IMG/VR virus record: IMGVR_UViG_3300043395_001930 | Span: 1 to 28,946 of that record | DNA from: a virus | Strand: one strand, 5' to 3' | DNA length: 28,946 bases | Shown: positions 1,032-21,989 of the stretch, one piece after another | How positions within the stretch are numbered: the stretch's first letter is position 1 | Layout of the letters: every line of letters starts with the position of its first letter | Notes under the pieces: generated by a model | The model's input: the letters and a program-made list of their open reading frames with translations, nothing else | Database searches by the model: none | What the model was told of the DNA's origin: nothing | Translations under genes and position numbers: made by a program

Positions 1032-1040
1032 GTAGGCTTG

Positions 1041-1089: not shown

Positions 1090-1092
1090 ACG

Positions 1093-1106
1093 CGGGCCTA
1101 GGCCCG
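1093..1106. repeat. 14-bp perfect palindrome upstream of the tail tube gene
   Basis: CGGGCCTAGGCCCG reads the same on both strands and lies 13 bases before the tail tube ATG at 1120. It could fold in the mRNA leader or bind a protein. Nothing else shows its role. Confidence 0.4.
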
Positions 1107-1119
1107 GATTGGATTCAAG

Positions 1120-1494: not shown

Positions 1495-1513
1495 TAGTGA
1501 GTTCGGGGGAACC

Positions 1514-2172: not shown

Positions 2173-2211
2173 GCGCATCCTGAAGCCAGGCAGAGGCCTC
2201 CGGAGGCGCCG

Positions 2212-2745
2212 GTGAAGGCCTCCGACTTGCCCAAGCGCCGGCCGTTGGTTGTCGAGCGGCTAGAGCCAGCAGACTTCGCAGACCGGTGGGGATCGCGTCC
2301 AGATGGCGGCGTTGCCGTCGGGCTGCGTTTCATCTCCGACGCTGCCGAGGGGCAGGCGCGCAACGATGCCGCGCGAGAGGCTGCGCGCAAGTACGCCGAT
2401 ACGCAAGACAGAGATGCGTCGGTCGCTGAGTACAATGACGAATTGATGGCTCGCATCGTTGGCGCTGCCATCTGTGACCCGAACGATGTTTCGCGCGACC
2501 CGGAGGCGATACAGTTCGCCGAAGACACGACGCGCAGCGCGTTGCGGTCCAGTACGATTGCGCGGCTCTTTCGACGCATCGAAGCCATGCGCATCGAGCA
2601 TGGCGCGCATGCTGAAGCGGATGACGATGACCTTGCAGAGATTTCCGACCTGCTGGAGCTCGGGGTCATCAATCTGCTGGACGAATCAAACGCCAGGCGC
2701 GCCAGACGATACGCCGCAGCGTTGCTTGAAACCCTGAGACTCTAA
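2212..2745 (+). CDS. Small acidic helical protein of the tail chaperone region
   Basis: A 177-aa protein starting at GTG 2212. The start is well supported: GGAGG at 2202-2206 lies five bases upstream, and the GTGA overlaps the unshifted stop of the previous frame. The first residues (MKASDL) echo those of the preceding gene (MKASNL). The body is helical and charged, with an acidic run DDDDLAEISDLLELG at about residues 138-152 and a basic C-terminal helix. I do not recognise the family. Its place just before the tape measure gene, where a second tail chaperone or tape-measure partner often lies, suggests a role in tail assembly. It ends in TAATG, overlapping the next start by one base, so translation is probably coupled. 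Confidence 0.6.
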   Translation: MKASDLPKRRPLVVERLEPADFADRWGSRPDGGVAVGLRFISDAAEGQARNDAAREAARKYADTQDRDASVAEYNDELMARIVGAAICDPNDVSRDPEAIQFAEDTTRSALRSSTIARLFRRIEAMRIEHGAHAEADDDDLAEISDLLELGVINLLDESNARRARRYAAALLETLRL

Positions 2746-5953: not shown

Positions 5954-5957
5954 TGCG

Positions 5958-7157
5958 ATGAATGACAAGGCATGGCGAGACGACGAGATTGTGCTGCGCG
6001 TAGGCACAAGCAAGAGCCGACGCCTTGTCTCGTATCGCATCGAGTCCAGCATCTTTCGGCAACCCGGCGCGTTCAGCGCGCGCTTCGGGCACGCTGAGAT
6101 GTTGCCTGCGATTCTGTCGCAGCCAATCCACGGCGCCAAGTTCGAGCTGCACATGGTGAAGGCCGGGCAAGAGTCTGGCGTCATCATGCAGACCGGCATC
6201 GTTGACGCATTCTCCGTTGGCAGCTCCGGACCGAGCGAGATTGAGCTGCGTGGGCGTGACATGATCGCGCCGCTGTTCAACTCGTTCTTTCTCGCCGATC
6301 GCGCATTCGATAGCGTCAACTATTACGACATCACGGCCGAGGCGATGAAGATCGCCGGCATGGATCCAGCGAACCTGGTGACTGGTCCAGGTGCGCGCGA
6401 CAGCATCATCGGCGGCGTCAAGAAAGCGAAAGCTCGGAAGCCGTCAACCGATGCCAAGTCGCAGATTGTGCAGCAGACCGAGGGCAACAAGACTCGGGTT
6501 GTGTACAACACAATCAAGGCCGACGTCGGCTCGAACTTGTATCAGTGGCTTAAGGACCAATACAAAAAGTCCGGGCTGTTTCTGTGGTCGGCTCCGAACG
6601 GCAAGCTGGTGCTGTCGGCGCCGAATGCCAACGTCATCCCGCAGTTCAAGATCACACGCAAGCTCAGCGGCCAGACGTCAACGGACGTGAACATCGAGGC
6701 GTGGGATTACGGCATTGACTATTCCGGAATGCACTCTCACGTGTACGTGTACGGCCGAGCCGGAGGCGGCAAGGATGGCCGTCGGCGCATCGGCGCTGTA
6801 GCGGTTGACCAGCGACTATTGGACGCCGGTCTGCAATCGCGCATCTCGTATGAGGATGATGTGCGGACGCAAAAAGAGGCAGAGTACCTCGCCAAGCGCT
6901 ATGCCATCGAAGAAACGCGCAACGGGCTGACCATCGAATACACGCTCAGCGGGCACTCGGCGCCGAGCCAAGTTACACCTGGCGTTCGCCTGCCCTGGAC
7001 GATTGACGAGATTGTAGCGGTTGACGATGAGTGGCTGGGCATCAAACAGAATTTGTACATCGGCGATGTGACGTATACTCGTGATGCTCAGGGCACGCGC
7101 ACAACGATCAAGCTGTACCGCCCGCGTGACCTAGTGTTTGCGGAGAATGCACAATGA
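5958..7157 (+). CDS. Baseplate hub protein (Mu gpP/gp44, T4 gp27-like)
   Basis: A 399-aa protein with the features of gpP/gpD-type hubs that form the trimeric ring attaching the spike to the tail tube: an N-terminal beta domain (DEIVLRVG, then YRIESSIFRQPGAFSARFG), a segment ELRGRDMIAPLFNS, a central domain with LYQWLKDQYKKSGLFLWSAP, and a C-terminal barrel with YTRDAQGTRTTIKLYRP. The order GRD, then QWLKD and LFLW, is typical of the family. AGGTGA lies just upstream of ATG 5958. The last four bases overlap the start of the spike gene (ATGA), as expected for hub and spike partners made in matched amounts. Confidence 0.8.
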   Translation: MNDKAWRDDEIVLRVGTSKSRRLVSYRIESSIFRQPGAFSARFGHAEMLPAILSQPIHGAKFELHMVKAGQESGVIMQTGIVDAFSVGSSGPSEIELRGRDMIAPLFNSFFLADRAFDSVNYYDITAEAMKIAGMDPANLVTGPGARDSIIGGVKKAKARKPSTDAKSQIVQQTEGNKTRVVYNTIKADVGSNLYQWLKDQYKKSGLFLWSAPNGKLVLSAPNANVIPQFKITRKLSGQTSTDVNIEAWDYGIDYSGMHSHVYVYGRAGGGKDGRRRIGAVAVDQRLLDAGLQSRISYEDDVRTQKEAEYLAKRYAIEETRNGLTIEYTLSGHSAPSQVTPGVRLPWTIDEIVAVDDEWLGIKQNLYIGDVTYTRDAQGTRTTIKLYRPRDLVFAENAQ

Positions 7158-7918
7158 GATGGGCATGGTCATTCGGCGCGTCACAGTTCAGTGAATACGA
7201 TGCGGATGGGTTCCTGGGAATCCAGATTGACCCGCAGGGCGAAGACGGCGGCGCTGCGCTGCTCGAGTTGGCGCATCCGTATGGGTTCGCGTCTCGACCC
7301 GTTGACCCGGACGCGGATGGCCTCGGCTGCGCCGTGCTGGTTGGCAAAGCTGGTGCTCGCGACTCCTGGGCCTGGCTAGGACATGACCCGCGCATGGCCA
7401 GCAAGGTGCCTGAGCTCAGCAAGGGCGCATCGGTGCAGTACGGCGCGACCGGCACATTCGGACTCATCGACGGCGAAGACGGCACCTGGACTCAGTACGT
7501 GCCGTGCGAGTTCGACGGTTCGGGTACTCCGACGAAAGCGCATCTGGTGCAAGTTGGACTCGACCCGAACGGCGAGAAGACGATCTCGATCGTGCACGCC
7601 GATGGCATGGCCATCACGATGTTTGACGGCAAGACCGTCATCTCGAACAAGAGCGGCAATGCATACATCGAGATCGGTGATGATGGCATCGTGCTCAATG
7701 GCAACGTGAAGCTGAACGGCGGCGTTGATGTTGGCGGGACCGGCGGGATGCCGCTGGTGAATCACGCATTATTCGTTGCTTGGTGGAATGCGATGGCCGC
7801 AGCCATTACCACTGCCAAGCCAGACGTGCCGCTTGCGCCGTCGGCACTTGGGCCAATGCTGGCAACGGCCGGGGCCGGTCTGGCCGCGGTCGGGACGCTA
7901 ATCACTAAGGGCAAGTGA
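7154..7918 (+). CDS. Baseplate central spike (Mu gp45/P2 gpV-like)
   Basis: 254 aa. The N-terminal 150 residues look like the OB-fold domain of gpV/gp45 spikes (GFLGIQIDPQGEDGG, then ASVQYGATGTFGL). Residues 160-200 are short beta repeats (NAYIEIGDDGIVLNGNVKLN) that fit the triple-stranded beta-helix forming the membrane-piercing needle. Many gp45/gpV spikes then carry an HxH iron-binding tip; here I see only a single His in the corresponding stretch and no HxH, and the C-terminus is Ala-rich and helical instead. The tip may therefore be provided by another protein. It overlaps the hub gene by four bases and the following Pro-Leu repeat gene by one. Confidence 0.75.
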   Translation: MRWAWSFGASQFSEYDADGFLGIQIDPQGEDGGAALLELAHPYGFASRPVDPDADGLGCAVLVGKAGARDSWAWLGHDPRMASKVPELSKGASVQYGATGTFGLIDGEDGTWTQYVPCEFDGSGTPTKAHLVQVGLDPNGEKTISIVHADGMAITMFDGKTVISNKSGNAYIEIGDDGIVLNGNVKLNGGVDVGGTGGMPLVNHALFVAWWNAMAAAITTAKPDVPLAPSALGPMLATAGAGLAAVGTLITKGK

Positions 7919-8244
7919 TGAGCCGCTGCGCGTTCGCCATTCCGCCGCTGCCTAGCCTGGCGCTGCCGAGTCTGCCCATTCCAGGGTTGCCGAGCCTTCC
8001 GACGCTGCCGAGCATCGGGCTGCCAGGGATACCGTTGCCGGGCCTGCCGAGCTTGCCGGTACCAAGCCTTGCCACGCCAAGCCTGCCTATCCCATCACTG
8101 CCAACGTTACCGACCCTGCCTGGTCTTCCGGCGCTGCCTGGTGTGCCGTCGCTTCCGGTGCCGTCCCTAGCGCTGCCTGCGCTGCCCATCCCATCCCTGC
8201 CGTCGCTGCCGACGCTGCCCGGGCTCTCCTGCCCACTGGACTAA
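7918..8244 (+). CDS. Pro-Leu repeat protein next to the tail spike
   Basis: 108 aa, of which 33 are Pro and 27 Leu; the rest are mostly Ser, Thr, Gly, Ala, Ile and Val. From residue 9 on Pro recurs mainly every third residue (motifs such as SLPTLP, PSLPIP), with a few phase slips. Three longer near-copies of PSLA-x-P-x-LPIP-x-LP-x-LPTLP begin at about residues 12, 49 and 82. A polyproline II helix has three residues per turn, so Pro and Leu would each form a stripe. One Cys lies near each end (residues 4 and 105). ATG 7918 (TGATG overlap, AAGG upstream) is preferred over GTG 7915. I do not recognise the family. Position between spike and wedge genes suggests a baseplate or spike accessory. 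Confidence 0.7.
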   Translation: MSRCAFAIPPLPSLALPSLPIPGLPSLPTLPSIGLPGIPLPGLPSLPVPSLATPSLPIPSLPTLPTLPGLPALPGVPSLPVPSLALPALPIPSLPSLPTLPGLSCPLD

Positions 8245-8248
8245 CGCC

Positions 8249-8698
8249 ATGAGCGCTGGACTCTATCCGCCCGCGACCACGCTCGCAGGGTTCGGCCCAG
8301 TTGTGGCCAACGATGCCAATCGGCGCGCGCTGCCTCCGGCTCCGCTGGTTGACAAGGCATCGCGCGAAGTGCCGCTCGAGACGACGGGACTCGTGAAGGC
8401 GCTGCACCCGGTCGATTCGCAAGTCTCGATTGGTCTTGGCTTTCGGCAAGGCACGATTGGCGGCGACCCAACAATCGGGCACTCGTTTCACCTGGTCAGT
8501 CTCGCGCAGCCGCAAGCGCAACTACAAGCGGACGTGGAGCAGCGTGCGCGAGCGGCCAACCCAATCAAGCGTCTTTTGGATGCTGGAGATATTGAGATAA
8601 TCTCGGTGCAAGCCGAACGGCTGCCAAGCGGTCTGCAAGTCGTAACCCACTATCGGAACATGCGAACCGGCATTGTCGGGCGCGTGCAGGCAACGTGA
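8249..8698 (+). CDS. Baseplate wedge protein (Mu gp46/T4 gp25-like)
   Basis: A 149-aa protein between the spike region and the gp47-like gene, the place of gp46 in Mu and of gpW/gp25 in other contractile tails. The C-terminal half has the family pattern: a helix LQADVEQRARAANPIKRLLD followed by a beta hairpin with IEIISVQAER and a basic terminal strand. In contractile machines this small protein joins the wedge to the sheath start and triggers sheath assembly. The first 70 residues are less regular and Pro/Ala-rich. The start ATG 8249 has no strong ribosome site and lies four bases after the previous stop, so translation is probably coupled. Confidence 0.65.
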   Translation: MSAGLYPPATTLAGFGPVVANDANRRALPPAPLVDKASREVPLETTGLVKALHPVDSQVSIGLGFRQGTIGGDPTIGHSFHLVSLAQPQAQLQADVEQRARAANPIKRLLDAGDIEIISVQAERLPSGLQVVTHYRNMRTGIVGRVQAT

Positions 8699-8701
8699 GC
8701 C

Positions 8702-10162
8702 ATGGTTGATATTGCAGTCAAAAGCCGCGACCAGATCGTTGAAGACTACCAACGCGCTTACAAGCTCCGAAACCCGTCGGCGGAAGTTGGCCCAGGCACG
8801 CAAGCGTATATCGATGCAGTGACTTTGGCTGACTCGCTGCTGCCGATGTATGCGAACGCGCAGCGAGTTGGCGCATCGATTGGTCTAGATGGCCAGTCGG
8901 CTGGCGATCTTGATGAGAGCGCCCGGGACGTAGGAATCGCGCGAGCGTCCGCTGTCGGTTCGGTTGGATACGTTACGCTCCGCACATCGTCTGGCGGCGC
9001 CACCATTCTTGCTGGCGATGGTCTGCGTGAACCCAACACGGGGCTCAGATTCACGTTCACCGAGACCGCGACTTACACGAATGGGTCGCAAGCGCGCATT
9101 GCTGCAGCAGACACGGGCCCAGCCACGAACCTAGACGCCGGCACTACGCTGCAGATCTCAAACCCGCGGCCAGGTTGCGCGCCGACTTGCACGATTGCCG
9201 AGCAGTCTGGTGGCGCTGGTCTCACCGGCGGAGCCGATAGCGAGGGAGACGAATCGCTACGAAGCCGCATTCGCGAACGCAGGCGCAAAGCATCTGACTA
9301 CGTCAAGGCCATCTACGATACGCCCGGCGTGCAAGTCGAAGCCGCGTTTATCTACCCGTGCGCGTATGGCCCCTCAACGCTGGGATTCACGTTCACGGTC
9401 CCAGGCACAAGCAGGATTCCCAGCGCCGCTCAACAGTCTGCTGTCTTGGCGCAACTCGAAAGTGCATCGCGCGGCACGGATGTTTTCTATTCGTTGGGGC
9501 TCTTGCCGGATCCCAAGACGATCGTTGCTCGAGTGAAGTGGTTGACGGGATCTGCGCGTTGGATTGATAACAGCCCATGGCCCGGATACTTCGCGACAAG
9601 CCCTGGCTCCGGAAGCGCAGGCATTATCGTTGACCCGGCCATCACGCCAACGGCAACAAGCTTCCGGCTCAAGACAATCAACGGAAACTACTCTTCAACC
9701 ACTAACCCCGTAGCTGGTCAGACCATCGCGATCTTTGACAAGGATCGTCGGCGCTTCTCTCGCAAGCGCATTGCGACAGTGATTGGCACCGGACCGTGGA
9801 TGATCACTTGCGACACGACATTCGGCGCAACTGATACTTCGTTCGTTCCTTACAGCGGCTTGCGAGTGTGCCCGTGGAGCGATGCGCTTGATTCTCTGGT
9901 GAGCATTCTGTTCGCGCACTTTGCCAAGCTTGGGCCCGGTGAGATGTTCGCCGATAGCTACATCGGCGGGCGCGCGTTACGGCAACCGCAAAGTCCGCTA
10001 TATTGGCCGAGCACGCTCACTCAGGATCTTGCCTCGGAACTGTTCAAAGCGTCCGGCATCGCGAACTTGAGCGTGGTCGAGGGAATCGGAGACTCTGCAT
10101 CTGTAACCGGCCTTGCGCCGGCTTTGCCGACAATCGGCGACTTCGCTGTGTTCGCTCTGTGA
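8702..10162 (+). CDS. Baseplate J-like wedge protein (Mu gp47, P2 gpJ-like)
   Basis: 486 aa. Typical baseplate_J features: N-terminal helix DQIVEDYQRAYKLRNP, then an ADSLLPMYANAQ helix, a beta region with GDGLREPNTGLRFTF, a Gly-rich GGAGLTGGADSEGDESLRSR motif at about residues 170-190 (the conserved GG-DxE-D-LR-R signature), and ASDYVKAIYDTPGVQ. The family builds the wedge arms that connect hub and fibres. The C-terminal region carries an extra beta-rich insert (about residues 290-400). Followed eight bases later by the next gene with a GAGGAAA ribosome site. Confidence 0.85.
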   Translation: MVDIAVKSRDQIVEDYQRAYKLRNPSAEVGPGTQAYIDAVTLADSLLPMYANAQRVGASIGLDGQSAGDLDESARDVGIARASAVGSVGYVTLRTSSGGATILAGDGLREPNTGLRFTFTETATYTNGSQARIAAADTGPATNLDAGTTLQISNPRPGCAPTCTIAEQSGGAGLTGGADSEGDESLRSRIRERRRKASDYVKAIYDTPGVQVEAAFIYPCAYGPSTLGFTFTVPGTSRIPSAAQQSAVLAQLESASRGTDVFYSLGLLPDPKTIVARVKWLTGSARWIDNSPWPGYFATSPGSGSAGIIVDPAITPTATSFRLKTINGNYSSTTNPVAGQTIAIFDKDRRRFSRKRIATVIGTGPWMITCDTTFGATDTSFVPYSGLRVCPWSDALDSLVSILFAHFAKLGPGEMFADSYIGGRALRQPQSPLYWPSTLTQDLASELFKASGIANLSVVEGIGDSASVTGLAPALPTIGDFAVFAL

Positions 10163-10169
10163 GGAAACC

Positions 10170-10661
10170 ATGAGCCCTGAATATTTCGTGTTTGATGGTG
10201 ACTCCGGCGCGGGCGTTCTGCCCTATCGGCCTTCGTTGGATGATGTTGGCGGCGCAGCGAAAGAGGATGACCAGGCGTTTCCGCCGGATCCTGTGACGAT
10301 GCCGACCGCGGCAGACTGGAACCAGATCGCTCGGCTGGTTACGGCATACGGAGCTGTGTGCCCACTGTTCGCTGCGCGCATCGATGTCGGCGCTGGCACT
10401 CGAGCCTTCGAGCATATTGCGACGGTTGCCCCGGACAAGATCGATGACGTTTCGCTGACGCTCACGGCAACCGGCACAGGCGTCACGACGATTGAGTGGG
10501 CATCCGGAACGATGCCCGATCATTACATCGCGACAGTCACGCCTGTTACATCGAGCGCAGTGCACGCGACAGTAACCTTCGGCGTGAACTCGCTTGTGGT
10601 GCGCACGTTCGATGCAGCCGGCGCTGCTGTTGATTGTGACTTCTGCGTGGAAGTTCGCTAA
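10170..10661 (+). CDS. Unknown baseplate-region protein
   Basis: 163 aa from ATG 10170, chosen because GAGGAAA lies four bases upstream; the frame is open further upstream but inside the preceding gene. The N-terminal third contains FPPDPVTMPTAADWNQI and looks like a conserved phage structural segment; the C-terminal two thirds are Thr/Val-rich beta strands, compatible with a small jelly-roll or Ig-like fold. It lies between gp47-like and gp48-like wedge genes, so it is probably a baseplate or fibre-attachment part. I do not recognise a named family. It overlaps the next gene by one base (TAATG). Confidence 0.6.
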   Translation: MSPEYFVFDGDSGAGVLPYRPSLDDVGGAAKEDDQAFPPDPVTMPTAADWNQIARLVTAYGAVCPLFAARIDVGAGTRAFEHIATVAPDKIDDVSLTLTATGTGVTTIEWASGTMPDHYIATVTPVTSSAVHATVTFGVNSLVVRTFDAAGAAVDCDFCVEVR

Positions 10662-11626
10662 TGCCCAAGTTCTCAGCGTTCTCAAAGTTCGGACATCTAG
10701 CGTTCTCCGGACGCGAGCCGCTTGCCAAGCGCATCTATGACGCGCAGCGCGCAGCTCTTGGCGGCGAGGAGAACTTGCCGGATGCGTTCGACGCATCACA
10801 CATGGCTGGCACTCTGTACGCCCGCGCGATGTCTCTTGCAACGGCGCAGCTGACTTTCGAACGCGCTATCAATAATCGTAGGCCGGGGCATTCGACGGAG
10901 GCGATAGAGGCGCACGAGAAAGACTGGGGCACGGTACCATCGCCACTTGCAACGCTAGACGAGCGCCGCGCTGCTTTGCGCGCTGCTGAGCTTGCGATGG
11001 GCCCAGCCACCGAGAGCACCATCCGCGAAGCACTCAGCACGCTGCTTGGAGCAGACTTCGTTGACATCGTAATGATTACGGATGGCGTTGCTCCGTCGGC
11101 GGTGCTCGTGGACCCTGACGAGGTCTGGGACGCTGCGGATGGGCCAGGCACATGGCTGCCGCCAGACACCGTGCAGAAGTGGCACCGTCTGGACGGTGAT
11201 GTTTATGCCGGAGTCCAGACCGTGAGCACGACTCATATGGCCAGTTCCACTGAGCCATTCGCCGTTGGCGAGCAGTTGGTGGTACATCCGGGCGTTCTTG
11301 GGAGACAAGAGCGCATCGTCGTTTCTGCCGTGAATGGCTCAAGCATCACGGCGACATTCAGACGTCCACACGAAGCTGGCGCGCCAATTACGAGCACACC
11401 GTGGCCTTTGGCGTTCTCGTACAATCGTGTGATCTTGGTTGTGGTTTCGCAGTCGGCGGCTCGCAGTTATCAGTCTCGCGCAAACATAGATGACCTGATG
11501 GATCGTATGCTGAGTGAGTCTGACCACTGGAACATCGTGGAAGAGTCTGGGCCGGGCACATTGGGTCCGTTCCGCGTGAGTGATGGCCGTATCGGCTGCA
11601 CGCCTATCGTTTCGATCAGCATCTAA
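10661..11626 (+). CDS. Baseplate wedge protein (tail protein I/Mu gp48-like) with inserted beta domain
   Basis: 321 aa. The N-terminal half has the helical features of gp48/DUF2313-type proteins: LAKRIYDAQRAALGG, HEKDWGTVPS, LDERRAALRAAELAMGPAT, then STLLGADFVDIVMI. The C-terminus (LMDRMLSESDHWNIVEESG, then GPFRVSDGRIGCTPI) matches the end of such proteins. Between them, about residues 150-255, is a beta-rich stretch that makes it longer than the roughly 200 aa usual for gp48. In Mu-type tails this protein follows gp47 and attaches the fibres. The order here, with fibre genes next, fits. Start overlaps the previous stop by one base. Confidence 0.65.
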   Translation: MPKFSAFSKFGHLAFSGREPLAKRIYDAQRAALGGEENLPDAFDASHMAGTLYARAMSLATAQLTFERAINNRRPGHSTEAIEAHEKDWGTVPSPLATLDERRAALRAAELAMGPATESTIREALSTLLGADFVDIVMITDGVAPSAVLVDPDEVWDAADGPGTWLPPDTVQKWHRLDGDVYAGVQTVSTTHMASSTEPFAVGEQLVVHPGVLGRQERIVVSAVNGSSITATFRRPHEAGAPITSTPWPLAFSYNRVILVVVSQSAARSYQSRANIDDLMDRMLSESDHWNIVEESGPGTLGPFRVSDGRIGCTPIVSISI

Positions 11627-11634
11627 AGGAACCC

Positions 11635-12438
11635 ATGGCGCACAACACTAGAATCAGGGCCGATGTTGCGGCCTGGGGTGTCGGTACGGTTGTCACACCG
11701 GATGAATTCGACACGCTGGATCGAGGTCAATATACGGCCATCAATGGCGATGACGGTGGAGTGTGGAGCCCCGTCGCGTATATCGGAATCGGTGGGCAAG
11801 GCGTGCGCCTATCCGGGGCGAATCACCAGATTACTGGCACGGCCACCGTAATGAGCGGCGGCTATGTGACCGTTGCAAGCGGCGGGCATTTGGACCTGTC
11901 TAGCGGCGCAGCGATGGCAATATCGGCTGGCGCCAACATCGGAATGAGCGGGACGCTAAATGTCTCTCCGACTGGCACGCAGACCGTTGATGGCATTCTG
12001 AATCCGCGGTCCGGTTCGACGTTGAAGCTTGAGGGCTCAGCGACGCTTGAAGCAACGGGCTCAATCGAGCTCAAGGTCAATTCTACGTTCACGGCTAAGA
12101 CGCCAATTGTTCTAACCAATGGCGGTCGCCTTCGGCTGCGCGTTGGCACCGGAACTGACTCGAACAATATCTATTCGCCTACCGGTTACGATGTCATCGT
12201 GATTCCGAGCCTCACGGCGGTTCGAACGTATGCGCTTGACGCAACCGGCTGCGCGTCTGGAGACACAATCACATTCAGCGTCGCGCGCGCCGTGAGCGCA
12301 AGCTACTATGTGCAGTTTACGGGCTCCGGCGACGCGTCTGGCCTAGCTGTTGGCAACGCGTCGAGCATGCCGAGCCAAATCACATTCATCCTGGACGGCG
12401 CTAATTGGTACGTCCTTCACTCATCGGACAAGAACTGA
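11635..12438 (+). CDS. Beta-helical tail fibre-like protein
   Basis: 267 aa with AAAGGA ahead of ATG 11635. Residues 1-55 form a compact attachment-like domain (DEFDTLDRGQYTAINGDDGG). Residues 56-155 are short repeats rich in Gly, Ser, Thr, Ala with strands such as VTVASGGHLDLSSGAAM, a pattern that fits a beta-helix or beta-prism shaft. The last 110 residues form a beta domain (YDVIVIPSLTAVRTYALD) seen at the ends of phage fibre proteins. Likely a fibre or fibre-base protein exposed at the baseplate. The next gene starts within its stop (TGATG). Exact family not identified. Confidence 0.6.
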   Translation: MAHNTRIRADVAAWGVGTVVTPDEFDTLDRGQYTAINGDDGGVWSPVAYIGIGGQGVRLSGANHQITGTATVMSGGYVTVASGGHLDLSSGAAMAISAGANIGMSGTLNVSPTGTQTVDGILNPRSGSTLKLEGSATLEATGSIELKVNSTFTAKTPIVLTNGGRLRLRVGTGTDSNNIYSPTGYDVIVIPSLTAVRTYALDATGCASGDTITFSVARAVSASYYVQFTGSGDASGLAVGNASSMPSQITFILDGANWYVLHSSDKN

Positions 12439-13181
12439 TGACCACTCCCTATGTGAAGGTTCGGGCGTCCGTTAACTCTGGCGCTGTTACCAGCGGAGGA
12501 ATCACCGTCGTGGATGGTGATTCCGTCGCGCTGTCTCTGCAGAGCACAGCTGGAATCGCGTCTTGCCTATGGGAGATTTACGCGTACCCGTCTGGGTATT
12601 CGACTCCGTCTGGCTGGACTGAAGATGTTCCAGGGAATCGCTTTTACTATCTGGGACTCACTCCTCCCGCGCTTGATATGACCGGCGCCCCGTGGGGCAA
12701 GTACCTCATCCGAGCCACGGGCAACGACGGAGTGCGCGGCGGCTCGGTTGTCGTGGCTCCAACGGACGGGACCACGATGCGCGACGAGAGCACCGCGCTT
12801 TCGATTCGCAGCGCATCCGGTCTGCGTGACTTGGCAACAATCGAGGGCACACAGTTCAGCGCGTCGCGTTCTTGGGTCGGTGACTTTCAAACGAATCTTC
12901 GCACGCTGGACGCTGGAGCCCTTCGTGGCTCGTACGTTGGCAGCATCGTTAAAGGCTCACTCGGTGCTGGCCTCACATTCACAGAGGACGTTACTGTGAC
13001 TGGAGTTGCAGCAACCGACAGCATCACAGTCAACGCGCAAGACGCCCTGCCAGCTGGTATCGTTGTGTATGGCTTTAGGCAAAGCGCTAATACTGTGCGC
13101 ATCGTTTGGCAGAACTGCACCGCGGGCTCTGTTTCTGTTGGAACCCATACATACGTGGTTGCGGCTCGGAGAACAGTCTAA
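12438..13181 (+). CDS. Ig-like tail/adhesin protein
   Basis: 247 aa starting at ATG 12438, which overlaps the previous TGA; an in-frame GTG at 12405 lies inside the upstream gene and is not needed. Residues 10-110 look like an Ig-type beta sandwich (VDGDSVALSLQSTAG, then CLWEIYAYP, YLIRATGNDG). The C-terminal 60 residues (VTVTGVAATDSITVNAQDAL, VRIVWQNCTAGS) match a small beta domain common at the ends of phage tail proteins. Probably an accessory fibre or decorator; Ig folds in phages typically bind carbohydrates weakly. It ends TAATG with the giant fibre gene, implying matched synthesis. Confidence 0.6.
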   Translation: MTTPYVKVRASVNSGAVTSGGITVVDGDSVALSLQSTAGIASCLWEIYAYPSGYSTPSGWTEDVPGNRFYYLGLTPPALDMTGAPWGKYLIRATGNDGVRGGSVVVAPTDGTTMRDESTALSIRSASGLRDLATIEGTQFSASRSWVGDFQTNLRTLDAGALRGSYVGSIVKGSLGAGLTFTEDVTVTGVAATDSITVNAQDALPAGIVVYGFRQSANTVRIVWQNCTAGSVSVGTHTYVVAARRTV

Positions 13182-16100
13182 TGGATCAGACACTGGTTGC
13201 CAGCTTCAATGCGTTCAAGCTCGCCCCGCGCAACGATGCCGAAGTCCCGACTCCGGCATCCGGTGAAACAATCTATTATTCGATCGAGCAGAGCGCACTT
13301 GTCTCGAAGGACTCCGCTGGAGTCGTTAGTGTGATCGGTTCTGGAGCAACGCCAGCGCCCGACCCGGTGACGTTCGATGAAGTGCATGCGGCTCTTTCTG
13401 AAGCGAACGCCGGCATCAGCGTCAACAGCCAACGCATCACGGATCTTGTGCCTGGCACCGATCCATCTGATGCGGTCGCCGTAAGCCAGCTTGATTCGAA
13501 ACTGAACACGGATGGCGGAACGCTGTCCGGTTCGATCTCGATGTCTGGCAACAAGATCACAGCACTCGGATCTGCCGAGAGCAATGGTGACGCGGTCAAC
13601 TATGGCCAGCTGCTGACGCGAACGAAGCTGAATGACGTCATCACGACGATCCTTTTTGGCGATGGATCTGACGGCGATCTGACGATCGCAGACTCCGGAT
13701 CTGCCGTTACGCTGACCAAGGACTCGTACTATGACGAAGTCACGATCTCTGGCACCGGATACATCGCGACGGCCGGATACAAGCTCTATATCCGCAAGCT
13801 GACGCTCACCAATGCAGGAGCCGGTGCCATCCGCTATGATGGCAACGCTGGCGGCAACGCGTCCGGAGCCACTGGCGGCAGCGCTGGGGCAGCCATCACC
13901 GGCGTGAGCGTTGGCAGCACTGGCGCCGGGACGGCTGGGTCTACGGCCACGACTGGCACCGGGACGGCCGGCGCTGGCGTCTCTGCGCTCTCTCTGGGCT
14001 CCGGGGGGACTCCCGGAGGGGCAGGAGGAGGCGGAGGCACTGGAGCGGCCGGAGCGGCTGCCGGAGGCGGGTCCAACAGCGCGGCCATCACAACGGTATG
14101 GCTGGGCCACCAACTCCACGATCATCATCTCCGCGGGACGACGCTTGTTGGCGGTGGCGTTGGCGGCCGTGGTGGCTCTGCGGGGTCTGGAGACGGATCT
14201 TCTGCAGTCGGCGGAGGCGGAGGCGGAGGCGGTGGCGGTGGGCCGTACCTGTGGCTCTCCGTCCGCGAGCTCGTGACCGGCCAAAGCACGGCTGCCGGAG
14301 CCATCCGCGCGCTCGGTGGCAATGGTGGCAACGGTGGCAACGGAGCGAGCGGCAACACTGGCGGCGGTGGCGGAGGCGGTGGTGGAGCAGGCGGACGCGT
14401 AGATTTCCGCTACCAGATCCATTCTGGCACCGATGCAACCGCGCTGTTTTATGCAGACGGCGGCAATGGCGGCACTGGTGGCAATGGATCTGGCACTGGC
14501 ACGACTGGCGGCAACGGAGTCGGCGGAACCGCTGGACGCGTCAGCATCTGCAACGTCACGACTGGCGTTGTAGAATACCACGCGCAGACTGTTGCGCCGA
14601 GCGGAGTAACTGGCGGGCAGACGCGCGTTGACCTCGCTGCCGACGCGTCCACGGGCGGATACACGATCATGGCTCCCGAGTTCAACTCGAGCGCCACGCG
14701 CGAGCGCGCAGCGAACTTCGCTGCATCCGTTACCGATGCCAAGGTCGCTCTTGCGGCTGCCACTGGCAATCTATGGGGCAGCACAACCGAGGTTGATACG
14801 ACCAACGTTGACGGCATCATCGTACTGACTCGATCGAATGCGTACTACGCCGGTCTGCCGGCTGCGGTGCGCACGCTTGCTGATGGCCTAGCGTCGAGCA
14901 CGCTCGAAGCTTTCGCGCTCTATCAGCAAGACGCGACCGCGCTCTATGTCATCGGCAACTCGCTCACTGGCTGTCAACATGGCCTGTATGAGGTGCTCGA
15001 TCGCCTCGGCTTTCGTTGGTATATCCCGGGCTCCGAGTGGACGATCACGCCGTCTGTTGTTTCGCACCGGCTGACGGTCAGCGAGATTGTAGAGCCCAAG
15101 TTCCGGCGCATGTTCAGCTGGGATACGTGGCCGAGCAATCTAGGATCCTATCCCGTTGAGAATCCGACCGCGCCCAAGACGGCCCAGGACTATTGGATCC
15201 GCAGAAACAAGTACACGACTGAATTCCACACGGCTGGGCACTCTTGGCAAAACTTCCTGGCGAACATGGTTTCGGCGCCAGGAACGCCGATGACTACGGA
15301 CCCGGTATTCTGGGCCGAAGTCGATGGCGTCCGAGTCTCGCCCACGAACCCGGCGAACACTAACAACAAGTTCCACTCGACCAACTATGGCAAGGTAAAC
15401 GGAGTCGAGAGCACGACGGATTACTCATCCTTCTCCGGCACGGTTCGACTCTTCGTGCTCGACAGGCTCTCGACACTGCAAGCGGTAGTGAACAGCGACC
15501 CAGACCAGTACACAGCTAGCGGCGTTTCGGTTATGCCGTCTGACGGGTATCTGGGCGAGGATGCGATCTGCGGATGCGCGAAGTGCGTGAACCTGCTGCG
15601 CAACGGTCCGTGGCAGCAGGTGAATGCTGATTCGACGGTGAGCGATCGAGTCTTCACGCTCGGTTGCGAAGTGGCAAAGCGCATGCTTGGCGCGCCAGAC
15701 ATGACTCGAGTTGCTGAGTACGCCCAGGCATCAACGTACCTCGCATCCGGCAAGACGCTGCCGAATGCAACGGACCTGCAGGATAGGTACGTGCTCTGCG
15801 CCGCGGTTCACAAGTACACTCTGCCTCCGAATAACGTGGTCATTCTGCCCAGCAACTTCGTCATCACGCTGAATGCATGGGACACCGGCACAAGCAACCT
15901 AACGAAGAAAACAGACCTCGAAACCATCGCTGCGTGGGTCAATCACAAGTTCGCGACGAGCGGAGAATACATCCTAGTTGATAAGAACTTCACGACGGTC
16001 ACTGGCACCGGCGACATGTGCGAACCAACGCACTCGCCACATGTCTCGCACTATCGCAGGAAGACCGCGCTGGATAACGGATTCGAAGGCTGCGCACTTA

Positions 16101-17443
16101 CGTCCTCAAACTCGGGCCCTTGCGCTGGCTGGTTCAACTGGCTCATGGGGCGTCAGGGTTGGTACGCAAACACGAATGCAACCACGCTACTCGATGCCGC
16201 GTTCACGGATCTGTTTGGGGCAGCCGCGAGCACCGTGCGTACGATGTTCGAGGAGTTTTGGGAGACACACAACCGCTGGGAAACAACCGACTGGCAACTG
16301 ACCAAACGCAACATCGGGCGCGCCTACCAGTTGCTTGCAACCGCTCGCGGTCAAGTGGTTGGGCAGACGGCCATCGAGACTCGGCTCAGCCGGCTTCGCT
16401 GGTACGTGCATTTTCTGCGGCTTGTTTATGAGTATGATCTTCAGGCGTTTGAGGCCCCGGATAGCCAAGCGCATCTTGATGCCGCGAATGCTGTTATTCG
16501 CTGGGCATGGTGCTGCCATCCGTATGGTCTCATCGATGCGTATGGCATCCAGCGCTATCGCATCACCAATGAGACCGAAACAATCAGCGCCGCGCTCAAC
16601 TCGAATTGGTCAACAAGCAAGAGCATCGGTCAATCGCCCTGGAATGGCTGCACGGCAGCGGCTGCTGCTACCAGAGCAACTGAGCTCGAAGGCGGCGAGG
16701 CTGCCTATATAGCCGAGGCACTGGCAGACATCGCGCATACCCGCACCACACTCGTGCAGCCGATTGCTTCGAACGCCGGCACCGACTACGTCACGGGGAC
16801 CACGTTCACCAATGCAAGCCCAGCGTCAACGTTCTTCCTGGCGCCAGGCGGGGAAGCCGTGACATGCAACGTTGGTGTCCAGACCACGACCCTCAGTGAT
16901 ACGTCAACCGCGCGCGTGGTTCTGCGAGACGCTTCGGGGAACTCGTCAAGCTTTGATGTTGCGTTCCCTGGCGGAGCTCAGGCCGGGCAATGGTACGAGA
17001 CCGAGCTCAACTTTGGCACGTTGAGCGCTGGTCAATACTCGGTCCAGATCACAACGATGAGCGCAGCTCATTACCTGCGGGCGTCGTTCAAGCGCAAGAT
17101 TCCAAACGCCACATGGGGACGCGTCCGGCAGAATCTAAACGGAATCACCCAGTATTTTTGGGTACCGTCCGGCACGACTTCGTTCATCGTTGAAGGTCGC
17201 TTCTTTGGCAACACGGCGCCCACTATCAAGTGCGAAAACACGGTAGTGACTCCGACCCAGCGCTATAACGAATACCTCGTTACTGTTGGCGCCGGTCAAG
17301 ACGGCAAGGTCTGGAACATCACGAACACGAAGTGGCAGGGCGCTTCAACCGCATCGGGGCGCCTTGGCGCCTTCCTGCGATTGCGCGGTGTGCCCAATCT
17401 GTTTTCACCAAGCGCTGACCAAGTCCTCTCAATCGCACCGTAA
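13181..17443 (+). CDS. Giant tail fibre with polyglycine region and DUF4838-type glycosidase region
   Basis: 1420 aa from ATG 13181 (TAATG overlap). Order: a tail-fibre N-terminus (residues 1-150) with repeats such as ITALGSAESNGDAVNYGQL; a beta domain (150-220); a Gly-rich region (220-455) with an 11-Gly run and GGNGGNGGN repeats; an alpha-glucuronidase/DUF4838-like region (about 500-1185); and a C-terminal beta-sandwich, probably carbohydrate-binding (1190-1420). The enzyme part shows LYVIGNSLTGCQHGLYEVLD and LGFRWYIPG at 588-618, which match the N-domain of such enzymes, MPSDGYLG with CGCAKC at 783-802, and a helical tail LLDAAFTDLFGAAASTVRTM. Phage fibres with enzymes usually degrade capsule or exopolysaccharide. 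Catalytic residues could not be assigned, so activity is an inference. Confidence 0.75.
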   Translation: MDQTLVASFNAFKLAPRNDAEVPTPASGETIYYSIEQSALVSKDSAGVVSVIGSGATPAPDPVTFDEVHAALSEANAGISVNSQRITDLVPGTDPSDAVAVSQLDSKLNTDGGTLSGSISMSGNKITALGSAESNGDAVNYGQLLTRTKLNDVITTILFGDGSDGDLTIADSGSAVTLTKDSYYDEVTISGTGYIATAGYKLYIRKLTLTNAGAGAIRYDGNAGGNASGATGGSAGAAITGVSVGSTGAGTAGSTATTGTGTAGAGVSALSLGSGGTPGGAGGGGGTGAAGAAAGGGSNSAAITTVWLGHQLHDHHLRGTTLVGGGVGGRGGSAGSGDGSSAVGGGGGGGGGGGPYLWLSVRELVTGQSTAAGAIRALGGNGGNGGNGASGNTGGGGGGGGGAGGRVDFRYQIHSGTDATALFYADGGNGGTGGNGSGTGTTGGNGVGGTAGRVSICNVTTGVVEYHAQTVAPSGVTGGQTRVDLAADASTGGYTIMAPEFNSSATRERAANFAASVTDAKVALAAATGNLWGSTTEVDTTNVDGIIVLTRSNAYYAGLPAAVRTLADGLASSTLEAFALYQQDATALYVIGNSLTGCQHGLYEVLDRLGFRWYIPGSEWTITPSVVSHRLTVSEIVEPKFRRMFSWDTWPSNLGSYPVENPTAPKTAQDYWIRRNKYTTEFHTAGHSWQNFLANMVSAPGTPMTTDPVFWAEVDGVRVSPTNPANTNNKFHSTNYGKVNGVESTTDYSSFSGTVRLFVLDRLSTLQAVVNSDPDQYTASGVSVMPSDGYLGEDAICGCAKCVNLLRNGPWQQVNADSTVSDRVFTLGCEVAKRMLGAPDMTRVAEYAQASTYLASGKTLPNATDLQDRYVLCAAVHKYTLPPNNVVILPSNFVITLNAWDTGTSNLTKKTDLETIAAWVNHKFATSGEYILVDKNFTTVTGTGDMCEPTHSPHVSHYRRKTALDNGFEGCALTSSNSGPCAGWFNWLMGRQGWYANTNATTLLDAAFTDLFGAAASTVRTMFEEFWETHNRWETTDWQLTKRNIGRAYQLLATARGQVVGQTAIETRLSRLRWYVHFLRLVYEYDLQAFEAPDSQAHLDAANAVIRWAWCCHPYGLIDAYGIQRYRITNETETISAALNSNWSTSKSIGQSPWNGCTAAAAATRATELEGGEAAYIAEALADIAHTRTTLVQPIASNAGTDYVTGTTFTNASPASTFFLAPGGEAVTCNVGVQTTTLSDTSTARVVLRDASGNSSSFDVAFPGGAQAGQWYETELNFGTLSAGQYSVQITTMSAAHYLRASFKRKIPNATWGRVRQNLNGITQYFWVPSGTTSFIVEGRFFGNTAPTIKCENTVVTPTQRYNEYLVTVGAGQDGKVWNITNTKWQGASTASGRLGAFLRLRGVPNLFSPSADQVLSIAP

Positions 17444-17451
17444 GGAAAACC

Positions 17452-18501
17452 ATGCTGAGCCTAGGCCTGTCTGTGTGGCAGAGGCGCGGAGCATCCGGCG
17501 GTAACATCGCTCCGGCAGTTGCGGTCACAAGCCCAATTGCCGGAGCGACGTTAATCGAAGGGCTCGCTGCCAATCTTGCCGGAACTGCAACCGATGCGGA
17601 TGGATCGATCTCTTCGGTAACGCCCAAGCTTGACGGAGTCGGCCTCGGCTCTGCCACGATTGGGGCCGGGACTTGGTCATACTCATATGCGCCAGCGGCT
17701 GCCGATATTGGTTCGCGGACAATCACGGCAACGGCAACCGATAGCAGCGGAGACTCTGTCACATCGTCCGACGTGAGCGTTACGATTCAAAGTGCCGAGG
17801 CCGGGATCGTTGCGGCATGCGCCCCAGACATCTTGCTCGTCGCGGGGATTCGCGGGACCACGTACTTAACCGGCAATCCAATTACGGCGTGGGATGATGC
17901 GACGGCCAACAATCGCGATGGTTCCGCGACAGACGGACCAGCAACGTACACAGCAAGCGGGCAGACGTTCGCTGACTTCGAAAACACTGTAGACTCCAAC
18001 GGTCAGCGCATCACGATTCCGCATGCGTGGCTTTCCGGCGCAACGAAGTTTTCGATCGCGTTCGTTGTTCAGCGCACGAAGCTAGCTCAAACCACGCTGC
18101 TCTTCTCGTGTGACTCGTTCGATATCGCAGCGCGATTCTATACCGATGGCGGGAACTCGATTCGGTTTCACCCGACCGCGGCAACACCGTATGGCTACTG
18201 TGCACTCGATGCCAACCTGAACCTAATCGAGTGGGATTTCGATGGCACCCAGGCCACCAACGCCACCAAGATGCAGATCTACATCAACGGAGTGGCGCAA
18301 GGTTTAACGTTTAGCGGTTCGCTCGGAACCGCGGTTCCAGCCCTGCTTGCGGGCTCTATCGGCCGCCAGTCGAATGATACCGGCGCATGCCAGGCACGCC
18401 TTGGAATGTTCCTCGGCAAGGCTGGTAGCGTGCTCGATTCAACCGCGAAGACTGCGCTGCGGGCGCGGGCGAAAACCCTTTTCCCATCACTACCGTACTG
18501 A
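17452..18501 (+). CDS. Ig-like plus LamG/concanavalin-type lectin protein
   Basis: 349 aa with AAGGAAAA just before ATG 17452. Residues 20-115 are an Ig/cadherin-like repeat with VAVTSPIAGATLIEG, TATDADGSISSV and TITATATDSSGDSV, the pattern of bacterial Big domains. Residues 125-349 fit a LamG/concanavalin-A jelly roll: WDDATANNRDGSA, then FSIAFVVQRTK, FDIAARFYTDGG and KMQIYINGVAQ, the last being the classic edge strand of laminin-G-like lectins. Likely a carbohydrate-binding adhesin partnering the fibre. It closes the host-recognition block; the holin-like gene follows after six bases. Confidence 0.65.
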   Translation: MLSLGLSVWQRRGASGGNIAPAVAVTSPIAGATLIEGLAANLAGTATDADGSISSVTPKLDGVGLGSATIGAGTWSYSYAPAAADIGSRTITATATDSSGDSVTSSDVSVTIQSAEAGIVAACAPDILLVAGIRGTTYLTGNPITAWDDATANNRDGSATDGPATYTASGQTFADFENTVDSNGQRITIPHAWLSGATKFSIAFVVQRTKLAQTTLLFSCDSFDIAARFYTDGGNSIRFHPTAATPYGYCALDANLNLIEWDFDGTQATNATKMQIYINGVAQGLTFSGSLGTAVPALLAGSIGRQSNDTGACQARLGMFLGKAGSVLDSTAKTALRARAKTLFPSLPY

Positions 18502-19241: not shown

Positions 19242-19250
19242 TTGGGGTTG

Positions 19251-19284
19251 CCTCCGTCGTATGCGATTGTAGATGCGACGGAGG
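19251..19284 (+). promoter_or_regulatory. Hairpin that buries the ribosome binding site of the candidate endolysin
   Basis: CCTCCGTCGTAT (19251-19262) pairs with ATGCGACGGAGG (19273-19284), a 12-bp stem with one G-T wobble and a 10-base loop. The 3' arm contains GGAGG, the ribosome site for ATG 19290. With the site paired, initiation should be poor unless a ribosome or other factor opens the stem. There is no T run, so it is not a terminator. Confidence 0.6.
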
Positions 19285-19289
19285 CAATC

Positions 19290-20075
19290 ATGGCGACCGG
19301 AGATACGGATAGATGGGTTCGGCCGTATGTGCTTCAAGCGCTCGCGACTGAGCTGGACAGGGATTACGTTTACGCAGCCGAAGTCTACGCGCTTTCGTGC
19401 GTTGCTCGGCTCGAATCGTTCTACGGCCGCGGGTGGAGAAGCCCGCCGCATGCGCCAGATATGGTTGGCTCCAATAACGTTGGCTCTGTTCAGTGCGTAG
19501 TTCACTCCAAGCAGTTCTTTAAGCGCTACGGCTCGCAGCGACCAGACCTCTCGAAGCATCCGGTGCCATCTGCCGTTGCCGGATGCTGCGCGCTTGCTGT
19601 TGACTCCAGCCCGGTCAATGGCGGGAATTCGTTCTACGTTACCACGTACAAGACGTATGCAGATCCGCAAGAAGGTCTGCAACATGTCTCGCGCCTGCTG
19701 CTGAAGATGGGCGTGATTGGCAGCGACGGGACAGCCGTGCGCGCGCGGACGTTCGACTCGGTATCTCGGCAGATGTATTTGCGGCACTACTACGAAGGCA
19801 CGGCCGCGACTCCTGAACAGCGGATTGCGGAGCACGCCGAAGCTGTTGCTAGGAATGCGCGCGACATTGCCAAGGCGCTTGGCGAGCCGATTGGGCTGGG
19901 TAGCGTTCCGGTGCCCGAGCGAGTGTTCGACGTGTCTCTGTTGCCTGAGCTGCCCGGCTCTCCTCCGGAGATATCGGACGAAGAGACGATGCAAGCGCTC
20001 ATCAACGCCGTGATGTATCGGAGCGCAGAAGACCGGCGCGCATCGCGTGACCGTGAGATGCGGGGGGACGAATGA
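19290..20075 (+). CDS. Candidate endolysin (lysozyme-like peptidoglycan hydrolase)
   Basis: 261 aa from ATG 19290, chosen because GGAGG lies five bases upstream; the frame is open back to a TTG at 19242, but that would include the hairpin. The pattern resembles lysozyme-fold phage hydrolases: a helix ending in ARLESFYGRGW (Glu42 a possible catalytic acid), NNVGSVQC, a central region with SPVNGGNSFYVTTYKTYADP, an EGLQHV helix and a later RHYYEG block. The C-terminal 60 residues are an acidic, helical extension. Location after holin-like and lipoprotein genes supports lysis. No signal peptide is seen, so holin-dependent release is expected. A tail-associated hydrolase or an unrelated fold cannot be excluded. 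The GGACGAATGA at its end starts the next gene. Confidence 0.5.
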   Translation: MATGDTDRWVRPYVLQALATELDRDYVYAAEVYALSCVARLESFYGRGWRSPPHAPDMVGSNNVGSVQCVVHSKQFFKRYGSQRPDLSKHPVPSAVAGCCALAVDSSPVNGGNSFYVTTYKTYADPQEGLQHVSRLLLKMGVIGSDGTAVRARTFDSVSRQMYLRHYYEGTAATPEQRIAEHAEAVARNARDIAKALGEPIGLGSVPVPERVFDVSLLPELPGSPPEISDEETMQALINAVMYRSAEDRRASRDREMRGDE

Positions 20076-20458
20076 GCTCTGTGCAATGGGACCGCGACGA
20101 TGACGAAGCGCTTTTTCAGCGCGCTTGCGCTGGACTTCAGCGCGGAAACGGCATCAAGCACGACCACGGCAAGCCGCGATTCGGACTCATCCCGCCCGAT
20201 GCTGAGCTCGAGGTTGCGAAGGCGTTGACATTCGGCGCCAGCAAGTACGATGACCCCGCGCGCCCGACTGACCCGAACTATAAGCGCGTGCCGCCGTATA
20301 GGTTCGAAGATGCAGCTCTGCGGCACGTGAACGCGCATCGCCGTGGAGAGCGCACCGATCATGAGAGCGGGTTGCATCCGCTGGCGCACGCGATCGTTGA
20401 CTTGCTTGTGGTTCTGCAGGCGGAGCTCGAAGCCGAGAAGCGGGAGGCTGCCAAGTGA
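20072..20458 (+). CDS. dATP/dGTP diphosphohydrolase N-terminal-domain protein (DUF5664)
   Basis: 128 aa overlapping the previous stop by four bases. It shows the family layout: KHDHGKPRFGLIPP, LTFGASKYDD, FEDAALRHVNAHRRGE, then DHESGLHPLAHAIVDLLVVL. The acidic and His residues in these blocks belong to an all-alpha, MazG-like metal-dependent pyrophosphatase fold. In phages such proteins trim purine dNTP pools; relatives (MazZ group) take part in 2-aminoadenine DNA synthesis, but no purZ-like partner is in this window, so that link is only possible. It is placed in a plus-strand accessory run, followed by the HNH gene (GTGA overlap). Confidence 0.75.
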   Translation: MSSVQWDRDDDEALFQRACAGLQRGNGIKHDHGKPRFGLIPPDAELEVAKALTFGASKYDDPARPTDPNYKRVPPYRFEDAALRHVNAHRRGERTDHESGLHPLAHAIVDLLVVLQAELEAEKREAAK

Positions 20459-21051
20459 ACGCTCAAGAGTGGAAGCGCCGCCACGATGCCGGCGAGTCGT
20501 ATAGGGATATCGCTGCCGGTTCTGGCGTGTCATGGTACACTGTACGACGGCATGTGATGCACGAGTCTGGCGCGTCGCTGCTTCCGACTAGCCCACTGAC
20601 CTGGAGCGACGACCAAAAGAGCCGGTTTTGGGCAAAGGTCAATGTGGCTGACGATGATGCGTGTTGGGAGTGGAACGCGTCGCTTGATAAGAAAGGCTAT
20701 GGGCAGTTCGCTGAACGTCACGGCGTTATGGTGAAGGCGCATCGTACGGCTTATGAGCTGTTGAGTGGCCCAATCACCGACGGGCTGTTTGCGTGCCACA
20801 CGTGCGACAATCCAAGGTGCTGCAATCCACGCCACATCTTCCTGGGCACCAACGCGGACAACATGAGAGACTGCGCCGCAAAGGGCCGCGCAGGCGCCCG
20901 CAAAAACTCAAAGCACGAGACAGATGCTCGGGCCGTGAAGATCCTTCGCACCATTACAGGATGGGGAGCGGTGCGCATCTCTAGGGCACTATCAATGCCG
21001 TTTGGATCGGTACAGAACATCTTGCAAAGCCGATGCTGGAGGAACGCATAA
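20455..21051 (+). CDS. HNH endonuclease (homing-type, HNH_3)
   Basis: 198 aa from GTG 20455. Residues 1-35 form a helix-turn-helix (SYRDIAAGSGVSWYTVRRHV). The nuclease core spans about residues 57-148: RFWAKV, ACWEWN, KGYGQF, KAHRTAYELLSGPI, then CHTCDNPRCCNPRHIFLGT, DNMRDCAAKGR. The His-Asn-His residues are His96, Asn124 and His127, with Cys pairs around a zinc site (114-123). A second HTH (residues 155-195) probably aids DNA binding. Free-standing enzymes like this are common in phages as homing genes or in DNA packaging. It fits without disturbance between neighbours, sharing four bases upstream and one downstream, so it is likely a long-standing resident. Confidence 0.9.
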   Translation: MNAQEWKRRHDAGESYRDIAAGSGVSWYTVRRHVMHESGASLLPTSPLTWSDDQKSRFWAKVNVADDDACWEWNASLDKKGYGQFAERHGVMVKAHRTAYELLSGPITDGLFACHTCDNPRCCNPRHIFLGTNADNMRDCAAKGRAGARKNSKHETDARAVKILRTITGWGAVRISRALSMPFGSVQNILQSRCWRNA

Positions 21052-21989
21052 TGCGCTGGTCAGACGATAAGTTGGCTCTTGCCATTGGCCTTTTGCAGTC
21101 TGGTCGATTCGCTACCGTCAACGATGTGGCGGCAGACCTAGGGACAACGCGTGACGCTTTGAAGTTTGCCTTCAGCTCGCGTGGGTTCGGGCCTCCGTCC
21201 ACGTACCTAACGGCGGACACTAGCTGCAAACAGTCGAAGCCTCAAGAGGTATCATCGTCCACAACCATCATGATGGTGTCGGATGTACATGTCCCGTACC
21301 ACGACAAGCGCGCATGGGAAACGGCAGTAGCGGCTTCCGAGGATCTGAAGCCGGACGTGATAGTCATAGGCGGAGACTTCCTAGACTGCTACGTATGCAG
21401 CAAGTTTGATAAGGCTCCGACTCGGTTCTCGCTACTCTCTGACGAGTTACGGGAGGCCCGCACTGAGCTTGCGAAGCTGAACGCGAGTCGCGTGATCTAT
21501 GTCGAAGGAAATCACGAGCACAGGCTGACGAGCTATGTGATTCGCAACACTGCGCCACTGGCCGGACTCGTTAGTATCGAGTCTGCTCTGCGCATTCGTG
21601 AGCGCGGATGGCAGTGGGTTCCGTACCCGCAGCACGTGACAATTGGGGACTTGCGCATCCAACACGAACCGATGCTTGGTGGCAAGTACGGCGCGATCAG
21701 GACTCTAGAGAGCGGTGGGGCGATCTCGTGGGCGTTTGGTCATACGCATACGGGTCAGGTTGCGTCGATGGGAACGCCCGATGGCTCTGAGATCCATGCC
21801 GTCAACACAGGCTGGTTGGGAGACTTCGATTCGCTCGCGTTCGATTACTGTTCTCCAGCTATGGCGCGGCAGCGATGGCGCCATGGGTTCGGTCTGTTTT
21901 ACCAGGATCGCGGCAAGACCATCTCCGCTCAATTCGTGCAGATCATCAACGGGGCATGTGTAGTCAACGGGAGGCGCGTTGCCGCATGA
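21051..21989 (+). CDS. Calcineurin-like metallophosphoesterase
   Basis: 312 aa from ATG 21051 (TAATG overlap; GGAGG eight bases upstream). A small N-terminal helical HTH-like part (residues 1-50) precedes the phosphoesterase. All dimetal motifs are present: D78-x-H80 in SDVHVPYHD, GGDFLD at 107-112, GNHEH at 153-157 and GHTH at 230-233, with a further His at 205. Such phage enzymes cleave phosphodiesters; the natural substrate is usually unknown, and nucleic-acid ends or nucleotide signals are both possible. The intact metal set predicts activity. Next gene overlaps by four bases (ATGA). Confidence 0.85.
   Translation: MRWSDDKLALAIGLLQSGRFATVNDVAADLGTTRDALKFAFSSRGFGPPSTYLTADTSCKQSKPQEVSSSTTIMMVSDVHVPYHDKRAWETAVAASEDLKPDVIVIGGDFLDCYVCSKFDKAPTRFSLLSDELREARTELAKLNASRVIYVEGNHEHRLTSYVIRNTAPLAGLVSIESALRIRERGWQWVPYPQHVTIGDLRIQHEPMLGGKYGAIRTLESGGAISWAFGHTHTGQVASMGTPDGSEIHAVNTGWLGDFDSLAFDYCSPAMARQRWRHGFGLFYQDRGKTISAQFVQIINGACVVNGRRVAA

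Follow-up and report, generated by a model that had tools for sequence, protein, structure and literature searches.

A putative tail fiber carrying a distant homologue of bacterial DUF4838 proteins in a Mu-like contractile phage

The fiber gene and its tail operon

The window analyzed here is a linear virus fragment of 28,946 bases, the first part of which is taken up by a run of contractile-tail genes: a sheath (positions 24 to 1031), a tape measure protein (2745 to 5075), Mu gp43-like and hub proteins (5075 to 7157), a baseplate J-like protein (8702 to 10162, plus strand; PF04865, 67.5 bits), and a Mu gp48-like baseplate protein (10661 to 11626, plus strand), which matches phrog_203 and scores below the cut-off for PF10076. 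The gp48-like gene is followed by two small fiber-like open reading frames (ORFs), the gene considered here (13181 to 17443), and a gene for an Ig-domain protein. The operon is Mu-like and of the contractile-tail type, and the gene at 13181 to 17443, which lies within it and encodes a fiber-like N terminus, sits at the tail-fiber position.

This contractile-tail module (window positions 1 to 13181) is highly divergent. A tblastn search of 50,697 phage records at 1e-5 gives no match for the sheath, and the hub protein has a sole match among phage records, to Rhizobium phage PPF1 at 28.5% identity. When used as a host probe, the baseplate J protein yielded matches of 31 to 32% in 3 of 294 Planctomycetota-group genomes and in 0 of 289 genomes of the other phylum; the three matches are accompanied by no further shared gene and by no DUF4838 gene close by. 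Downstream of the fiber gene, positions 17452 to 18501 encode a bacterial Ig domain (Big_7, 38 bits) and then a LamG/concanavalin-like region, making this product a candidate second adhesin or fiber tip. A 277-aa ORF in the endolysin position (19242 to 20075) matches no PHROGs or Pfam family, and directly past the tail genes (20072 to 21989) are a protein with a dATP/dGTP diphosphohydrolase N terminus, an HNH endonuclease, and a metallophosphoesterase.

The fiber gene (plus strand, as are its parts described below) is real: it begins with an ATG that overlaps the stop codon of the preceding ORF, extends for 1,420 codons with no internal stop, and ends 9 bp before the next ORF. An earlier note on this DNA had described a single 1,420-aa protein with a fiber N terminus, a polyglycine region, and an enzyme region, and both the frame and the layout bear this out. 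Residues 1 to 150 (13181 to 13630) form the fiber N terminus, which, judging from the operon position, would presumably attach to the baseplate, and which includes a YadA_stalk-like stretch (aa 85 to 124, 13433 to 13552; Pfam score of 23.7 bits, under the cut-off of 28.4). A GDGSDGDLTI domain (aa 157 to 210, 13649 to 13810; 52% identical over 29 aa to a Gly-rich protein in L169, another viral contig) opens the stalk proper, a glycine-rich stretch (aa 211 to 460, 13811 to 14560) in which Gly makes up as much as 53% of a 30-aa segment. The combination of a GDGSDGDLTI domain and a Gly-rich block also occurs in L169 at positions 7692 to 8867, within a 391-codon frame of a 119-kb viral contig, and that frame has no obvious tail-fiber character.

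The remainder of the protein starts with a GH67N-like alpha/beta domain (aa 491 to 617, 14651 to 15031), at the end of which stands LGFRWYIPG (aa 609, position 15005). The front half of a DUF4838 barrel (aa 641 to 836, 15101 to 15688) carries W672, N676, K677, GH (aa 686 to 687), D788, and CxCxxC (aa 797 to 802); here, SDGYLG begins at aa 787 (15539) and includes the codon of D788 (15542 to 15544), a conserved acid and a candidate active-site residue, and the CGCAKC block (aa 797 to 802, 15569 to 15586) falls on conserved columns. The motifs that the earlier note had picked out are, therefore, all present. The back half of the barrel (aa 837 to 985, 15689 to 16135) has diverged beyond recognition and is followed by a helical domain (aa 986 to 1190, 16136 to 16750), which is also helical in the structural model of the phage protein, and by a C-terminal beta domain (aa 1300 to 1420, 17078 to 17440) that is common to bacterial DUF4838 enzymes.

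Homology to bacterial DUF4838 proteins

Direct searches do not identify the enzyme region, which has no match in Pfam, PHROGs, or NCBIfam. When the Pfam DUF4838 model (PF16126) alone is run against the record, it scores 12.5 bits at 16064 to 16243, below the cut-off of 26.6, such that the fiber protein falls short of the gathering score and is formally a nonmember. The nearest bacterial relatives of the phage module (those checked) score 115 to 173 bits with the same model, and we therefore regard the miss on the phage protein as a failure of sensitivity.

Homology was instead assessed through bacterial intermediates. A QNDN..YC.C..C DNA pattern, picked without reference to the phage sequence, retrieved 118 bacterial DNA stretches encoding such proteins, and the phage sequence aligns with an alignment of 74 of these pattern-fetched DUF4838 proteins at an hhalign score of 64.3, co-linearly and over some 500 residues, with decoys (20 shuffles, a reversed copy, and six other proteins from the window) reaching no more than 23.4. 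Querying those genomes with the phage protein led to closer DUF4838 types and then to the closest, L190 and L192, which possess the GH67N-like domain, the DG..C.C..C block, the helical domain, and the C-terminal beta domain (YFYVP...VW...GVPPYL), and which have the same end as the phage protein. As a single-sequence query, the C-terminal domain alone returns no matches; it is recognized only by way of L190 and L192. Their subfamily is present at an E value of ≤1e-30 in 28 of 246 genomes from the phylum of genome G165 (Planctomycetota group) and in 73 of 241 genomes from the phylum of a Lentisphaerae-titled genome.

A subfamily profile that excludes the phage and is built from 21 bacterial members of the DUF4838 family, drawn from Planctomycetota and the Lentisphaerae/Verrucomicrobiota group, matches the phage protein with 172.3 bits across aa 507 to 1416 (aa 507 to 836 plus 979 to 1416) and with an hhalign E value of 2.6e-34 over 719 columns. 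These members were collected with a four-row profile that had the phage among its rows, which makes the collection mildly circular; the 74-sequence test is free of this. The DUF4838 identity proposed in the earlier note is, then, missed by the single-protein Pfam search and recovered with this bacterial profile. By segment, hhalign scores against the bacterial profile are 82.6 for aa 485 to 640, 80.5 for aa 641 to 836, 85.7 for aa 986 to 1190, and 62.3 for aa 1190 to 1420, with 62.6 recorded for the C-terminal beta domain at aa 1300 to 1420, and the decoys (shuffled sequences, reversed sequences, and other window proteins) peak at 26. These four segments (the GH67N-like domain, the front barrel half, the helical domain, and the C-terminal beta domain) follow in the order of the profile, such that the module is co-linear with bona fide DUF4838 members from end to end. 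As tested through these intermediates, sequence similarity to DUF4838 is far beyond chance, and we consider the fiber protein to be a distant DUF4838 homologue. The stretch from about aa 490 to 1420 (about 930 aa) almost certainly represents an entire DUF4838 module, placed on a fiber N terminus and a glycine-rich stalk, in keeping with the earlier note, which had proposed a tail fiber fused to a module of the DUF4838 type and a beta domain at the C terminus.

The closest known arrangement is that of the bacterial DUF4838 subfamily with a PSDG/PNDG..CxCxxC block (L190, L192, L207, and others), in which the order of domains over about 930 aa is that of the phage and which shares with it D788, CxCxxC, the W..RNK/R and GH motifs, and the C-terminal beta domain. 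The bacterial forms, however, lack the fiber N terminus and Gly-rich stalk and retain the conserved back half of the barrel that the phage protein does not have.

Relatives in viruses were sought in several ways. Single-protein scans of INPHARED phages, viral contigs, and genome contigs recovered no relatives of the fiber protein, and a set of plasmid matches (E values of 7 to 8) was discarded as noise, the one from Microvirga being a LysR-type regulator. Among IMG/VR viral contigs, the motif L..[LMI]G.RWY.PG has five matches, none of which is a DUF4838 protein, and neither the QNDN..YC.C..C pattern nor patterns from the subfamily profile found DUF4838 relatives there; such scans require near-exact short peptides, so that relatives equally divergent would escape them, and we do not claim uniqueness. 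Similarly, the model of the phage module has no viral fold match in BFVD at an E value of ≤0.001, and a literature search located no paper linking DUF4838 with phages. Within these searches of IMG/VR, INPHARED, and BFVD, the DUF4838 enzyme is otherwise seen in bacteria only.

Fold and active-site residues

No solved DUF4838 structure is detectable by sequence in the copy of the PDB that was searched. The AlphaFold2 model of a bacterial homologue (L013; pLDDT of 86.8, pTM of 0.83) has its best fold match in GH115 (E value of 4e-20), followed by GH84, GH138, GH67, and GH20. The modeled family fold is that of the glycosidase superfamily with an alpha/beta N-domain and a TIM barrel, which includes the alpha-glucuronidases of GH115 and GH67. 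For the phage module, modeled with distant relatives as the alignment (pLDDT of 62.5, pTM of 0.70), the first 23 PDB matches are to GH84, GH20, and GH89, with E values of 3e-5 to 1e-3 and low TM-scores. On these models, there is good support for a glycosidase fold in the DUF4838 family, and the phage protein probably shares it, although this is not proven.

The earlier note had likened the enzyme region to alpha-glucuronidases, and a depolymerase of the GH67 kind is one way to read the locus: the best PDB sequence match of the DUF4838 profile is a GH67 enzyme (1k9d, E value of 4e-9), and the GH115 alpha-glucuronidases supply the best folds of the family model. The sequence match, however, is essentially to the N-domain, which is common to GH84, GH20, and GH138 as well, and bacterial relatives match PF03648 (Glyco_hydro_67N) with the N-domain only. 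For all of these families (GH67/GH115, GH138, and GH84/GH20), the resemblance to DUF4838 consists of N-domain sequence similarity and the overall fold of the bacterial model, and there is no sequence match at the level of the barrel, the back half of which is divergent in the phage. None of the GH67 Pfam domains (PF03648, PF07488, and PF07477) occurs in the phage protein, which the GH67 and GH115 models miss altogether.

Enzymes of GH163 are endo-beta-N-acetylglucosaminidases, an activity that agrees with the GH84 and GH20 fold neighbors of the family. A DUF4838 protein of Polaribacter has been annotated as GH163 (PMC9870897); this literature label is the one link drawn here between GH163 and DUF4838. 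Because several other GH families share the fold and because of this GH163 annotation, alpha-glucuronidase is only a fold-level label for the phage module: the likeness drawn in the earlier note holds for the superfamily, GH67 proper and the activity are not supported, and a GH67-type depolymerase is very unlikely.

An intact enzyme is likewise not supported, on account of the back half of the barrel. With an hhalign score of 17.9, aa 837 to 985 are level with their own shuffles, and the phage retains 3 of 8 conserved columns there (the bacterial minimum is 5), compared with 10 of 12, 12 of 18, and 6 of 8 in other regions. V876 stands where all 59 bacterial sequences have Tyr, N936 replaces the Tyr of a [DE]Y motif (its acidic neighbor is ambiguous, since D934 would align after a one-residue shift), and T974 replaces a Glu that 20 of 21 members of the closest subfamily possess, with E or Q in most others. 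The conserved back-half pattern (the Y, [DE]Y, and E/Q positions) is accordingly absent from the phage protein. Kept, on the other hand, are D788, an acid in 58 of 59 bacterial relatives, H687, R643, R718, W672, N676, and CxCxxC, and the [ND]D[NG]..CxCxxC block is represented by PSDGYLGEDAICGCAKC, with D788 and C797, C799, and C802.

Since aa 837 to 985 are at decoy level and without the family-conserved Tyr and Glu/Gln, catalysis is uncertain, and on the sequence we consider the chances that the module is active to be evenly balanced. It is possible, if somewhat doubtful, that the module is a pseudo-enzyme that would act solely as a large, lectin-like receptor-binding head. The only diverged segment is the half of the barrel that usually bears part of the active site, and Tyr and Glu have been lost while the scaffold domains were kept. 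D788 and the CxCxxC loop are nevertheless retained, the catalytic residues of DUF4838 are not established here, the position of E974 is Gln in most QNDN-type members, and rapid change is also compatible with a new specificity.

Origin and proposed role

In a quick tree, the phage falls within the subfamily clade (SH-aLRT of 99) on a long branch, its exact placement being unsure. The module has the same codon usage as the structural genes of the phage (distance of 0.142, the smallest among the regions tested), and its identity to bacterial relatives is 14 to 25%; if the module was transferred from bacteria, both suggest that the transfer was old. A recent transfer was rejected on the codon usage. 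The same observations bear on the prospect that assembly wrongly joined a phage fiber to a bacterial enzyme gene: the fusion is carried by a single viral record, and close relatives were not found in the scans run, but the 1,420 codons form one open frame with the next gene 9 bp on, the codon usage is phage-like, and bacterial relatives are no closer than 14 to 25% identity, all of which renders a chimera highly improbable.

From its position in the tail operon, the fiber N terminus, and the Gly-rich stalk, we infer a receptor-binding fiber with a glycan-directed head, and the module is quite probably part of a glycan-directed tail fiber. Our best reading of the sequence is of a tail fiber that recognizes host glycans and was built from an anciently captured glycosidase, with cleavage being plausible. 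The protein would be the distal tail fiber of a Mu-like contractile phage, attached to the baseplate through aa 1 to about 150, with the glycine-rich region forming the stalk; aa ~490 to 1420 would represent a DUF4838 glycosidase taken long ago, presumably from a bacterium, and kept whole. The conserved front half of the barrel would most likely dock a glycan of the host envelope, and the remodeled active site, in which D788 is kept, would probably also cleave it, rendering the fiber an unusual depolymerase. Taken in full, cleavage included, this account of a receptor-binding fiber derived from a captured DUF4838 glycosidase could go either way. A more tentative formulation is that a bacterial DUF4838 glycosidase was captured whole and its active-site half was rebuilt, yielding either a depolymerase of a new class with altered chemistry or a lectin-like receptor binder.

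Phage depolymerases attract study for their removal of capsules and biofilms, and most of those described in detail are beta-helix spikes. Tailspike and tail-fiber depolymerases combine a fiber N terminus, a center of carbohydrate-active type, and a C-terminal beta domain, as is the case here. The reviewed ones are beta-helix hydrolases and lyases, whereas the center in this protein is a DUF4838 barrel, and neither DUF4838 nor glucuronidase is among the classes of the review (PMC10621286). The protein would be of a known kind, a tail fiber with a carbohydrate-active module, and its DUF4838 center would set it apart. A full bacterial-type glycosidase module on a tail fiber is overlooked here by Pfam, PHROGs, and NCBIfam alike, which suggests that some tail-fiber enzymes escape standard annotation, and the module offers a natural case for how an enzyme turns into a receptor-binding protein.

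Since the searched copy of the PDB yields no DUF4838 structure by sequence, structural work on the module would also help a large and poorly studied bacterial family. Many DUF4838 candidates are present in some of four bacterial genomes (G010, G150, G165, and G146), as many as 71 of them, at first look, in G010, numbers that suggest large expansions of this little-studied family.
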